The notes under the pieces were generated by a model. It saw nothing but the letters and a program-made list of their open reading frames with translations. It did not search any database and was not told the DNA's origin. The translations under genes were made by a program, and so were the position numbers. 64,000 bases of DNA, taken from Salminus brasiliensis. Its lineage: Eukaryota > Chordata > Actinopteri > Characiformes > Bryconidae. The stretch spans positions 48,526,594 to 48,590,593 of the forward strand of contig NC_132879.1 of the NCBI RefSeq assembly GCF_030463535.1. The letters are read 5' to 3'. Each line of letters opens with the position of its first letter. Positions within the stretch are counted from its first letter, which is position 1. This document shows positions 32,901 to 36,845 of the stretch, piece after piece.

Positions 32901-35900
32901 TTGGGAGGAGGTGTTTACACCTCGCTTTTCTTTGAGGCAAGTGACATCTGAACGTGATCCGATGTAAACAGGCTAGTAAATAACCACCACTTTTGTTTGT
33001 ATTCAGTTGCAATAGAATTTGCATTACATGAAGGTTTTAAATAATTTAAACATTAGGCCATCTGGAATTTGAAGAAACTTGGTTCAGTAAGTTAAGCTAC
33101 TCTTAAATGGAAAAGCTCAAATTCTGAAATCAGAAAAGACAGAAATTAAAAAATTACATTCCTAAATATCACAAGAAAAGCCTTCGTTTTACAGTCTGAA
33201 TTACTCCTCCGGAAGCTACAGTCTTCTGACTGGCCTGTGGTAGTAGATGGTACTGCTACACAAACAATACTAAAGGTAACAGAGTCTTTACAAACATAAA
33301 ATCCACACCTGGTTCACAGTAATAGGACTATTTCAGTGGTGTGTCACATACTCAGTGTGGCCTCAATACTCTGTAGTGATTTGTCCTCCGGCTCAAAACA
33401 GTTCCTTCGAGCCGGATTTGAACCAGCGACCTAAGGATGTCCATATTGAACCTCTACAGTCCTCCGCTCTACCAACTGAGCTATCGAAGGAGACATGGCA
33501 GCTAGCTCTACTTGTAAAATTTTTGATCATAGACCATTGTGATCGGTTGCAGTAAAACCTGTAATAGATAAAAGTTTTAAATCATTTAAAATGAGGTTAT
33601 TTGGAATTTGAAGAAAGTTGGTTTCGGTAGGTTAAGCTAGTCTTAAAGCGCAAAGTTCGGCCTAAATAAGACGTTGATAGAAAACCGAATATATTCCTAC
33701 AATCTATAACTATTAATCAGACCCTTGTTCCTGGGCGTTACCCTTAATATACAGGCTGAGTTACTCCTCCTGAAGCTACAGTCTTCTGACTGGCCTGTGG
33801 TAGTAGATGGTACTGCTACACAAACAATACTAAAGGTAACAGAGTCTTTACAAACATAAAATCCACACCTGGTTCACAGTAATAGGACTATTTCAGTGGT
33901 GTGTCACATACTCAGTGTGGCCTCAATACTCTGTAGTGTTTTGTCCTCCGGCTCAAAACAGTTCCTTCGAGCCGGATTTGAACCAGCGACCTAAGGATGT
34001 CCATATTGAACCTCTACAGTCCTCCGCTCTACCAACTGAGCTATCGAAGGCTTGGCAAGAATGTTTTTATGAGCCGGTGTGTCCCTTTAGACTCGCTGCA
34101 TGTGGAAAAATAAGACGCATTTTTGCTTCTATTAGTAAACTGACACAGAGAAGCTCAATATAACGGGAGCAGAATTGGGTTTTGTTGGTATGCTGTTCTT
34201 CTAAATTTGTGCTCTCTAGCTAAACATGCTGCAGTGCAGGTATTACTTGGCTGTGGAACATGTGGTCTATTAAAGGACTTTTTTTTCTATTTAACAAAAC
34301 CCAGTGCGTTTAACTCGTCTTCTGAGGCCATTTATTTTATTGACCAATAAATGTTAAAAAAGAGCTTCCTTCGAGCCGGATTTGAACCAGCGACCTAAGG
34401 ATACCTGTGTACAACCTCTACAGTCCTCCGCTCTACCAACTGAGCTATCGAAGGAGACACGGCAACCAGCTTTATTTGTACAGTTTTTGATCATAGACCA
34501 TTGTGATCGGTAGCAGTAAAACCTGTAATAGATAAACGTTTTAAATCATTTAAAATAATTTAAACATTAGGCCATCTGGAATTTGAAGAAACCTGGTTCG
34601 GTAAGTTAAGCTACTTTTAAATGGAAAAGCTCAAATTCTGAAGACAGAAATTTAAAAATTACATTCCTAAATATCACAAGAAAAGCCCTCGTTTTTCAGG
34701 CTGAATTAGTCCTCCAGAAGCTACAGTCTTCTGACTGGCCGGTGGTAGTAGATGGTACTGCTACACAAACAATACTAAGGGTAACAGAGTCTTTACAGAG
34801 TACTGCAGCCTATCTCAGCTGTGGTGATGAACTGTTTCCACACAGAGGTTCGGAAATGTTTGAACTGATAAGCCAAAACTTTTGAAACAGCACTCTTTCA
34901 CAGAAGCGTCTGTTATATTATATATTATACACAAAACTGTGTATTCCATGCAATTTTATTGTAAATTTAGCAGAAAGTCCATGGAAACAAAGTAATGATT
35001 TCTTTTCTTTTTTTTTTTTGGTTGGAACAGCGCTAAAAATGAAAATTTATTTGAATGAAAATGTTCAATAATTTTACCAAATAAGACGTTGATAGAAAAC
35101 CGAATATATTCCTACAATCTATAACTATTAATCAGACCCTTGTTCCTGGGCGTTACCCTTAATATACAGGCTGAGTTACTCCTCCTGAAGCTACAGTCTT
35201 CTGACTGGCCTGTGGTAGTAGATGGTACTGCTACACAAACAATACTAAAGGTAACAGAGTCTTTACAAACATAAAATCCACACCTGGTTCACAGTAATAG
35301 GACTATTTCAGTGGTGTGTCACATACTCAGTGTGGCCTCAATACTCTGTAGTGTTTTGTCCTCCGGCTCAAAACAGTTCCTTCGAGCCGGATTTGAACCA
35401 GCGACCTAAGGATGTCCATATTGAACCTCTACAGTCCTCCGCTCTACCAACTGAGCTATCGAAGGAGACACAGCAACCAGCTCTAATTGTACAGTTTTTG
35501 ATCATAGACCATTGTGATCGGTTGCAGTAAAACCTGTAATAGATAAAAGTTTTAAATCATTTAAAATGAGGTTATTTGGAATTTGAAGAAAGTTGGTTTC
35601 GGTAGGTTAAGCTAGTCTTAAAGCGCAAAGTTCGGCCTAAATAAGACGTTGATAGAAAACCGAATATATTCCTACAATCTATAACTATTAATCAGACCCT
35701 TGTTCCTGGGCGTTACCCTTAATATACAGGCTGAGTTACTCCTCCTGAAGCTACAGTCTTCTGACTGGCCTGTGGTAGTAGATGGTACCGCTACACAAAC
35801 AATACTAAAGGTAACAGAGTCTTTACAAACATAAAATCCACACCTGGTTCACAGTAATAGGACTATTTCAGTGGTGTGTCACATACTCAGTGTGGCCTCA

Positions 35901-36845
35901 ATACTCTGTAGTGTTTTGTCCTCCAGCTCAAAACAGTTCCTTCGAGCCGGATTTGAACCAGCGACCTAAGGATGTCCATATTGAACCTCTACAGTCCTCC
36001 GCTCTACCAACTGAGCTATCGAAGGCTTGGCAAGAATGTTTTTATGAGCCGGTGTGTCCCTTTAGACTCGCTGCATGTGGAAAAATAAGACGCATTTTTG
36101 CTTCTATTAATAAACTGACACAGAGAAGCTCAATATAACGGGAGCAGAATTGGGTTTTGTTGGTATGCTGTTCTTCTAAATTTGTGCTCTCTAGCTAAAC
36201 ATGCTGCAGTGCAGGTATTACTTGATTGTGGAACATGTGGTCTATTAAAGGACAAGGCTTTTTTCTATTTAACAAAACCCAGTGCGTTTAACTCGTCTTC
36301 TGAGGCCATATTAACATTTTTGGCCAATAAAAAAATTGTTTCCTTCGAGCCGGATTCGAACCAGCGACCTAAGGATGCCTGTGTACAACCTCTACAGTCC
36401 TCCGCTCTACCAACTGAGCTATCGAAGGAGACATGACGACTGTCTCTACTTGTACGCTTTTCATCGTGTTTCAGGTCATGTTACTGTGTCAAACTAACTT
36501 ACTAACTTACCAGTCCGCCTTCTTTAAGCAGTCGATTTTAGCTCCTCTGTCAATGAGGTACCGAACACACCGCTCATGGCTCATGGAGGCAGCCTCGTGT
36601 AGCGCTCTCTTGTAATCACTGTTGTACAGCTCGATGTCCATCCCCACATCCTCCACCAAATACCTCAGGATGTCGGCGTGCCCGTGCCTGGCTGCATAGT
36701 GCAATAGAGTATCTCCCGATTTCCCAAAATGTGCCTGTATCGACTGCTTAATTAGGAGCTTTTCCTCTATCTGCTGTCTGAGCATACTCAGATCTCCGTC
36801 CTGCGTTAACCTGATTAGGGGCTTGAATGTGTTTTCCTCGTCCAT
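29999..36845 (-). CDS. ankrd16: Ankyrin repeat domain-containing protein 16
   Basis: Seven coding exons: 36511-36845, 32362-32582, 32127-32169, 30956-31064, 30698-30859, 30426-30504, 29999-30162 (1113 nt, 370 residues; human 361). Splice sites are GT-AG with continuous frame. Diagnostic stretches are [90 protein letters not shown] and [20 protein letters not shown], giving about nine ankyrin repeats. In mammals ANKRD16 binds alanyl-tRNA synthetase and captures misactivated serine on lysines, preventing mistranslation; the same role here is inference. The start is the ATG at 36845 ([10 protein letters not shown]); the in-frame TTG nine bases further upstream is not needed. Intron 1 (about 3.9 kb) carries six tRNA-Tyr genes on the same strand, and the intron between exons 3 and 4 carries a Tc1 relic. 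Confidence 0.95.
30872..30891. repeat. (CA)n microsatellite
   Basis: Short CA run in the intron just upstream (minus sense) of the ankrd16 exon at 30698-30859. Confidence 0.85.
31069..31096. repeat. (TAA)n microsatellite
   Basis: Trinucleotide run immediately beside the acceptor of the ankrd16 exon 30956-31064, so on the minus strand a TTA run sits in the polypyrimidine-tract position. Confidence 0.85.
31105..32085 (-). pseudogene. Degenerate Tc1/mariner transposon, near full length
   Basis: On the minus strand this runs from the start of a familiar fish Tc1-like element (GGTCAGTGGAGAATGGCCTGAC near its 5' side) through the DDE transposase region to ..CATGGACCAGAATCGTAGGG and GGCAAAGGGAGTCCC at its 3' side. 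Text such as CCAGTAGGATAATGCATCG corresponds to the conserved block near the second catalytic Asp. Multiple indels and stops remove any open frame. Inserted in the ankrd16 intron between exons 3 and 4. Confidence 0.7.
32815..32975. mobile_element. MITE with AGCCTGTTTACAYC termini
   Basis: Starts AGCCTGTTTACACCTGG and ends CCGATGTAAACAGGCTAG, an inverted terminal repeat of about 14 bp, with a body typical of short non-autonomous fish elements. It lies in ankrd16 intron 1, beside the tRNA array. Confidence 0.55.
33403..33490 (-). tRNA. tRNA-Tyr (GTA), intron-containing, copy 1
   Basis: The minus strand starts CCTTCGATAGCTCAGTTGG (acceptor arm plus A box), has anticodon loop CTGTAGA, B box GGTTCAAATCC and a 3' arm CTCGAAGG pairing with the 5' end, discriminator A. 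A 15-nt intron (39-53 of this line, i.e. 33439-33453) sits one base 3' of the anticodon, the canonical place. Mature length 73 nt. A Pol III terminator TTTT follows 5 nt downstream (33395-33398). Confidence 0.97.
33963..34050 (-). tRNA. tRNA-Tyr (GTA), intron-containing, copy 2
   Basis: Identical in sequence to copy 1 including the 15-nt intron, with the same TTTT terminator. Starts 560 bp above copy 1. Confidence 0.97.
34367..34454 (-). tRNA. tRNA-Tyr (GTA), intron-containing, copy 3
   Basis: Mature part matches copies 1 and 2; the intron differs (AGGTTGTACACAGGT on the minus strand) and the 3' flank is different, with a TTTTTT terminator. 404 bp above copy 2. Confidence 0.97.
35378..35465 (-). 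tRNA. tRNA-Tyr (GTA), intron-containing, copy 4
   Basis: Identical to copy 1 with the same intron; lies 1975 bp above copy 1, as part of a duplicated three-gene block. Confidence 0.97.
35938..36025 (-). tRNA. tRNA-Tyr (GTA), intron-containing, copy 5
   Basis: Identical to copy 2; lies exactly 1975 bp above it, with the same downstream flank (CTTGGCAAGAATG..). Confidence 0.97.
36341..36428 (-). tRNA. tRNA-Tyr (GTA), intron-containing, copy 6
   Basis: Counterpart of copy 3 (1974 bp above it), sharing its type of intron and flank, but the B box reads GGTTCGAATCC, the commoner vertebrate form. It lies about 80 bp downstream of the ankrd16 exon 1 donor at 36510. Confidence 0.97.

Follow-up and report, generated by a model that had tools for sequence, protein, structure and literature searches.

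Six intron-containing tRNA-Tyr genes arrayed in the first intron of ankrd16 of Salminus brasiliensis

The window analysed here is a stretch of 64,000 nucleotides of the fish Salminus brasiliensis (contig NC_132879.1, positions 48,526,594 to 48,590,593), the numbering of which is used throughout unless another contig is named. It carries ankrd16 on the minus strand (36845-29999), intact, with seven coding exons, six introns that are all GT-AG, and an open frame of 370 amino acids. The product was 100% identical to S. brasiliensis ANKRD16, the next named matches being those of Serrasalmus rhombeus (87%) and Astyanax mexicanus (88%). An earlier note on this DNA had described six tRNA-Tyr(GTA) genes of 88 bp, lying inside the first intron of ankrd16 and on its coding strand. 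Searching with cmscan against RF00005 recovered six of six, each above the gathering score and 88 bp long, and exon assembly placed them all within intron 1 (Table 1). The genes are designated t1 to t6, and t6 starts at base 83 of the intron, which begins at 36510. The occurrence of six near-identical genes is beyond chance.

Table 1. Features of the tRNA-Tyr array and of its host gene
Feature	Position	Strand	Description	Basis
t1	33403..33490	-	tRNA-Tyr(GTA), intron aggttcaatatggac, A57, T4 run	cmscan 60.3 bits; sequence
t2	33963..34050	-	tRNA-Tyr(GTA), intron as t1, A57, T4 run, 5' flank type Y	cmscan 60.3 bits; sequence
t3	34367..34454	-	tRNA-Tyr(GTA), intron aggttgtacacaggt, A57, T6 run	cmscan 60.3 bits; sequence; ARAGORN label Leu
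t4	35378..35465	-	tRNA-Tyr(GTA), intron as t1, A57, T4 run, 5' flank type X	cmscan 60.3 bits; self-BLAST
t5	35938..36025	-	tRNA-Tyr(GTA), intron as t1, A57, T4 run, 5' flank type Y	cmscan 60.3 bits; sequence
t6	36341..36428	-	tRNA-Tyr(GTA), intron aggttgtacacaggc, G57, T7 run	cmscan 60.4 bits; sequence; ARAGORN label Leu
Triplet unit A	33190..34492	-	t1-t3	self-BLAST, 96.3% identity with unit B (1308 columns)
Triplet unit B	35165..36465	-	t4-t6	self-BLAST
Unmatched segment	34798..35078	.	281 bp without match elsewhere in the array, at the unit A/B join, in the t3-t4 spacer	self-BLAST, spacer alignment
Short element	32823-32974		perfect inverted termini of 12 bp, where an older tRNA spacer breaks off on the left side of the array	
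ankrd16 coding exon 1	36511..36845	-		exon assembly; protein 100% to S. brasiliensis ANKRD16
ankrd16 intron 1	32583..36510	-	host of the array, 3928 bp, GT-AG	exon assembly
ankrd16 coding exons 2 to 7	29999..32582	-	with their introns	exon assembly

Alignment of the six genes showed that the mature part, 73 nt long, was identical in t1 to t5 and differed in t6 by a single change, G for A at position 57, so that one of the 73 sites was variable. In each gene, position 37 was followed by an intron of 15 nt, of which there were three distinct sequences in all: one was common to t1, t2, t4 and t5, and the second type, found in t3 and t6, differed between these two only in the last base. The near identity of the mature parts and the two intron types noted earlier were thus borne out, as was the presence of a terminator for RNA polymerase III (Pol III) beside every copy, the T runs starting 5-6 nt past the gene end. 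The internal boxes TAGCTCAGTTGG and GGTTCRAATCC were present in all six genes; internal A and B boxes together with a T-run terminator are the promoter and terminator elements of tRNA genes. All six start with CCTTCGA and end with CGAAGGA, giving C1-G72 and A73, which are identity elements for tyrosine. ARAGORN, run with the bacterial code, placed tRNA genes at these six positions, its ends deviating by at most 2 nt, and labelled t3 and t6 as Leu-TAG; by alignment, these two also read CTGTAG followed by the intron, and the CTGTAG loop was common to the six genes. A pseudogene array was rejected in view of scores of 60.3-60.4 bits, the absence of any marked non-standard pair in the six cmscan alignments and the single variable mature site. 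The six genes are real and well formed and, judging from these sequence features, very likely functional.

In all three intron sequences, C32 can pair with the third-last intron base, G(-3), and all four positions of the anticodon-intron helix can pair when G-U is counted. The helix of the t1-type introns is weak, with two G-U pairs (C-G/U-G/G-U/U-A), and that of t3 and t6 is a fully Watson-Crick helix of 4 bp. In fly and human cells, the proximal anticodon-intron pair is required, and a helix that is too strong or fully unpaired harms intron processing (PMC6614914). Since all three intron sequences keep the C32-G pair, the precursors would be cut by the TSEN endonuclease; that the speed of processing may differ between the t1-type and the t3/t6 introns is a guess.

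The genes were spaced 560 and 404 bp apart in a triplet that recurred at offsets of 1975, 1975 and 1974, in agreement with the spacings and the repeat of about 1975 bp given before; the start proposed for the array, 33187, fell near that of a 300-bp repeat downstream of t1 (33190). Two rounds of duplication had been proposed, a scheme that was too simple, as the following shows. Segment 35079-35465, comprising t4 and 299 bp downstream, was 100% identical over 387 bp to 33664-34050, comprising t2 and its downstream region, at an offset of 1415 rather than 1975; the best match of t4 with these 299 bp was t2 and not its positional partner t1. This identity stopped exactly at the 5' ends of the tRNA genes, beyond which t2 had flank type Y and t4 type X, a boundary that points to unequal crossover or gene conversion. 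Corresponding spacers of the two units were close, with 9/472 differing sites between the t1-t2 and t4-t5 spacers and 13/310 plus three gaps between the t2-t3 and t5-t6 spacers. An older spacer version was found beside t1 on the low-coordinate side and beside t3 on the high-coordinate side, the two being 90% alike, and over the X block the older and newer versions were 67-74% alike. The t3-t4 spacer was composed of the older version, the 281 unmatched bases, in which no inverted repeat of 12 nt or longer was found, and the newer version. In addition, t3 itself was a mosaic, having an intron of the t6 type with the t1-type base A57. Two rounds of duplication are insufficient to account for the mosaic spacers, the mosaic t3 and the t4-t2 block, and the simplest reading of the sequence is tandem duplication combined with several exchanges that took place in or beside tRNA genes. 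The short element on the left side of the array is possibly the trace of a seventh gene that was lost. A tRNA-like relic was sought there by cmscan of intron 1 at E values up to 1 and rejected, as only the six tRNAs and six sub-threshold matches to unrelated families were returned.

Alignment of units A and B gave 1296 aligned columns with 38 substitutions and four gaps. The substitutions were distributed as 2/264 in the gene bodies, 27/231 within 40 nt of a gene and 9/801 farther out (near versus far flank, Fisher p ~1e-11); leaving out the t3/t6 5' flank, in which the homology of t6 to the other copies ends after about 35 nt, the ratios were 17/194 near and 9/801 far (p = 2.7e-7). Within the first 40 nt, t1 and t4 differed at 7/40 sites on the 5' side and 1/40 on the 3' side, t2 and t5 at 0/40 and 1/40, and t3 and t6 at 10/37 and 8/34, respectively. 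Strong selection in the tRNA gene body and transcription-associated mutation in the flanks have been described (PMC8113476, citing Thornlow 2018). Read in that way, the flank excess suggests that t1, t3, t4 and t6 would be transcribed and t2 and t5 less so, and the substitution pattern fits genes that are conserved and probably transcribed, least for t2 and t5.

A genome search with t5 and a few flanking bases yielded 499 candidates, of which 40 were scored. Among these were five of the six intronic genes, 34 genes on a second contig (C3) and one on a third (C10); as t6 was absent from the scored genes, further isolated tRNA-Tyr genes elsewhere are possible. The gene on C10 (12249861-12249946, minus strand) was a single tRNA-Tyr with G57, an intron of 13 nt and a T6 run, detected by cmscan (60.6 bits) and overlooked by ARAGORN. 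On C3, an array extended from about 49.149 Mb to beyond 49.558 Mb, its right edge not being reached. It was sampled in eight 10-kb stretches holding tRNA-Tyr genes between 49.145 and 49.560 Mb, rather than read through, and these contained 63 such genes, all on the plus strand; no tRNA-Tyr gene was found in two stretches at 49.110-49.130 Mb. A convergent tRNA-Glu(CTC) gene accompanied most of the C3 tRNA-Tyr genes listed by ARAGORN, the units measuring about 680, 879 and 1078 bp. Some genes at the Glu position were read by ARAGORN as Ala-CGC (stretches L011 and L012) or Lys-CTT (L014 and L015), readings suggestive of anticodon changes among the copies.

Diversity on C3 was calculated from 61 of the 63 copies, two lying too near a stretch edge being dropped. 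The mature sequence of t1 to t5 was found in 20/61 of them and was altered by 1-7 mismatches in the other 41/61. Mature diversity was 0.033 on C3 (26/73 sites variable) and 0.0046 in the ankrd16 set (1/73), intron diversity 0.075 and 0.236, respectively, and that of the C3 genes with the intron included 0.040. In bins of 20 nt, flank diversity ranged from 0.006 to 0.086 on C3, peaking in the first 20 nt on the 5' side, and from 0 to 0.20 by flank type in the ankrd16 set. The four-position helix was also complete in the C10 intron and in two of the three common C3 introns, with 3/4 pairs in one common C3 intron (19/61 copies), and the weak helix with two G-U pairs was present in at least 39 of the 61 sampled C3 copies. 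The sampled loci had no flank similarity to one another. The genome has a dual layout, small and dispersed in the ankrd16 array and the C10 gene versus large and tandem on C3.

From these features we consider it probable that the six tRNA-Tyr(GTA) genes in intron 1 of an intact ankrd16 are each transcribed by Pol III, that unequal tandem duplication and gene conversion enlarged the set, and that its role is that of a small, dispersed supplier of tRNA-Tyr. Each gene carries in its sequence internal promoter boxes and a T run, and it is their use by Pol III that we infer. The array would most likely be a source distinct from the giant, weakly constrained Tyr/Glu array on C3, with a division of labour between the two suggested by analogy with zebrafish and Xenopus. 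For its part, ankrd16 most likely puts up with the array as a passenger that is removed by splicing, and its promoter may influence the tRNAs.

Several observations weigh against this reading. Because the mature sequence of t1 to t5 is also that of 20/61 C3 copies, those products can be separated only by their introns. The lack of a flank excess at t2 and t5 (1/80) means that possibly not all six copies are active. Gene conversion by itself could hold the gene bodies identical, which leaves constraint unproven, and the C3 5' flanks are also more diverse in the first 20 nt (0.086 versus 0.006-0.050 farther out), so that a flank excess by itself is no marker of active genes. The 40-nt bin width was picked after the clustering had been seen, and the test took all sites to be independent of one another. 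In nematodes, Pol III occupies intronic tRNA genes less when they lie on the host strand than when they are antisense to it (PMC4999229).

If the six genes were silent leftovers, tRNA-Tyr could come from the far larger array on C3, and the quiet flanks of t2 and t5 would be accounted for; this we consider improbable, since the mature parts are almost invariant and the introns keep a cleavable pairing, while the C3 copies gather mismatches. A real rival for the flank pattern, possible although on balance unlikely, is that the divergence reflects recombination boundaries, with old spacer pieces lying beside the genes, rather than extra mutation linked to transcription. It is a real rival because, in addition to the mosaic spacers and to the t6 5' flank, whose match to the others is lost after about 35 nt, t4 resembles t3 near the genes and t1 farther out (in the first 40 nt on the 5' side, t4 has three differences from t3 and seven from t1, and at 41-100 nt it equals t1). 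However, five of the seven differences between t1 and t4 were unique to one or the other when read by eye with t3 and t6 as outgroups, the comparison of 5/40 with 2/432 still gave p = 6e-5, and the t3/t6 3' flank was in excess as well (8/34). It is very unlikely that the animal has three genes rather than six and that unit B was duplicated in the assembly. The units are 96.3% identical overall, a level at which the mistaken joining of two haplotypes can occur, and the overlapping genome stretch that was identical to the window comes from the same assembly and is not independent of it. Nevertheless, the 38 substitutions and four gaps are very unevenly spread, 281 unmatched bases lie at the join, the flanking exons 1 and 2 are single in the window, t4 matches t2 rather than t1, and the window has no N.

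The relation to the host gene could be closer than that of a passenger, with open chromatin or the passage of RNA polymerase II from the ankrd16 promoter gating the array, or with Pol III on the array dampening ankrd16. We regard this as rather unlikely, although the position of t6 so near the start of intron 1 would suit it, as would the Caenorhabditis data, in which the intronic tRNA gene sup-7 was shown to depend on the promoter of its host and conservation between species extends to 32-52% of tRNA-host pairs (PMC4999229). On the other hand, the shared orientation is common, 56% of the C. elegans intronic tRNA genes being on the host strand, and 44% of its 609 tRNA genes are intronic, a share not significantly unlike chance given the intron content (PMC4999229), so that there is nothing unusual in the nesting as such. 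It is possible, as raised before, that Pol III activity and ankrd16 interfere with each other or are coordinated, with this precedent in a nematode. The earlier note had also remarked on the coincidence, in its view probably due to chance, that mammalian ANKRD16 works with alanyl-tRNA synthetase (AlaRS). We give it no weight: a functional tie of the array to this role has nothing but the location to recommend it and is close to inconceivable, as the tRNAs are for tyrosine, another amino acid, and ANKRD16 is reported to remove serine misactivated by AlaRS independently of tRNA (PMC7373986). A search of the open-licence literature at the level of titles found none that matched tRNA genes in ankrd16.

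A57 occurred in t1 to t5 and in 61/61 sampled C3 copies, and G57 in t6 and in the C10 gene. These shared bases, together with the weak helix common to the t1 type and to at least 39 of the 61 C3 copies and with the mosaic t3, hint at a history in which a t6-like founder, with G57 as on C10, multiplied in the ankrd16 intron, A57 arose there, and one copy seeded a C3 array used in the egg, the intronic copies staying in the body under the ankrd16 promoter. We think such a course of events quite unlikely; conversion of intronic copies by C3, in the reverse direction, is possible.

Elsewhere in the window, ARAGORN proposed a tRNA-Leu at 6590-6657, which had no cmscan support. Within ankrd16, positions 31193-31300 of intron 3 read like a piece that we take, from its motif, to be of a Tc1-type transposase. 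The DNA downstream of ankrd16 holds fragments of a gene for Rab GDI, probably gdi2. An Ataeniobius toweri protein has ankyrin repeats and a GDI domain (PF00996), and one source calls it Rab GDP dissociation inhibitor; it is probably a merged annotation of adjoining ankrd16 and gdi2. On the minus strand, ankyrin-repeat open reading frames (ORFs) at 5783-8733 and 10219-15990 look like two tandem gene copies, with ankyrin matches in both of the parts compared with Pfam, 5783-6016 and 15565-15990. Minus-strand ORFs within 42700-62537, with a C2 domain at 42700-42927 and a PDZ domain at 62205-62537, probably belong to one large synaptic-type gene.

The ankrd16 array is a new, well-resolved instance of kinds already known, namely tRNA genes in introns, in tandem arrays and in dual sets of isolated and repetitive genes. 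What makes it valuable is that one genome encodes the same tRNA in a small, conserved array nested in an intron, in an isolated gene and in a giant array, and that the introns, of 15 nt in ankrd16, 13 nt on C10 and 14 nt on C3, reveal from which of them a precursor came. Sequencing of precursors could thus be enough to show which set is used in the ovary, in the embryo and in the adult, and whether use of the intronic set goes along with that of ankrd16. The two near-identical triplets also provide an internal gauge, copy by copy, of the rate of change in tRNA flanks versus spacers.

Compared with known systems, the six genes resemble other TSEN-cut intron-containing tRNA-Tyr genes in the GTA anticodon, the intron after position 37 and the pairing of C32 with a G at the third-last intron base (rules in PMC6614914), and they differ in the fully Watson-Crick helix of 4 bp in t3 and t6 and in the two G-U pairs of the t1 type. 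Scans of viral and prokaryote contigs for the exact pattern of intron-containing tRNA-Tyr gave no matches, and a scan of viral contigs for ankrd16 gave three pattern matches, none of which was confirmed. With the Caenorhabditis intronic tRNA genes (Sagi et al. 2016, PMC4999229) they have in common the placement of Pol III genes in protein-coding introns, about half of them on the host strand in that genus, and the presence of identical copies elsewhere in the genome; there, host dependence was shown for one tRNA gene and the pairs are partly conserved, whereas the ankrd16 case is a six-gene array in a fish, described from its sequence. A parallel in layout is found in zebrafish, with its small dispersed set and giant tandem arrays of near-identical isodecoders (PMC11417395, PMC11574265). 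Its late-rising isodecoders come from scattered genes, those of the egg from repetitive regions and those always present from both (PMC11417395), and early embryos show nearly complete methylation of the clusters on chromosomes 4, 8 and 3 (PMC11574265). By this analogy, the A57 form, which occurs both in ankrd16 and on C3, would be present throughout, and the G57 form of C10 and t6 would be body-specific. A dual gene set for the same amino acid was likewise the subject of work from 1989 (cited in PMC3565088). Against these two precedents, the Salminus sets are known from sequence while the stage of use was measured in zebrafish, and the dispersed set of Salminus is itself a small tandem array within an intron.

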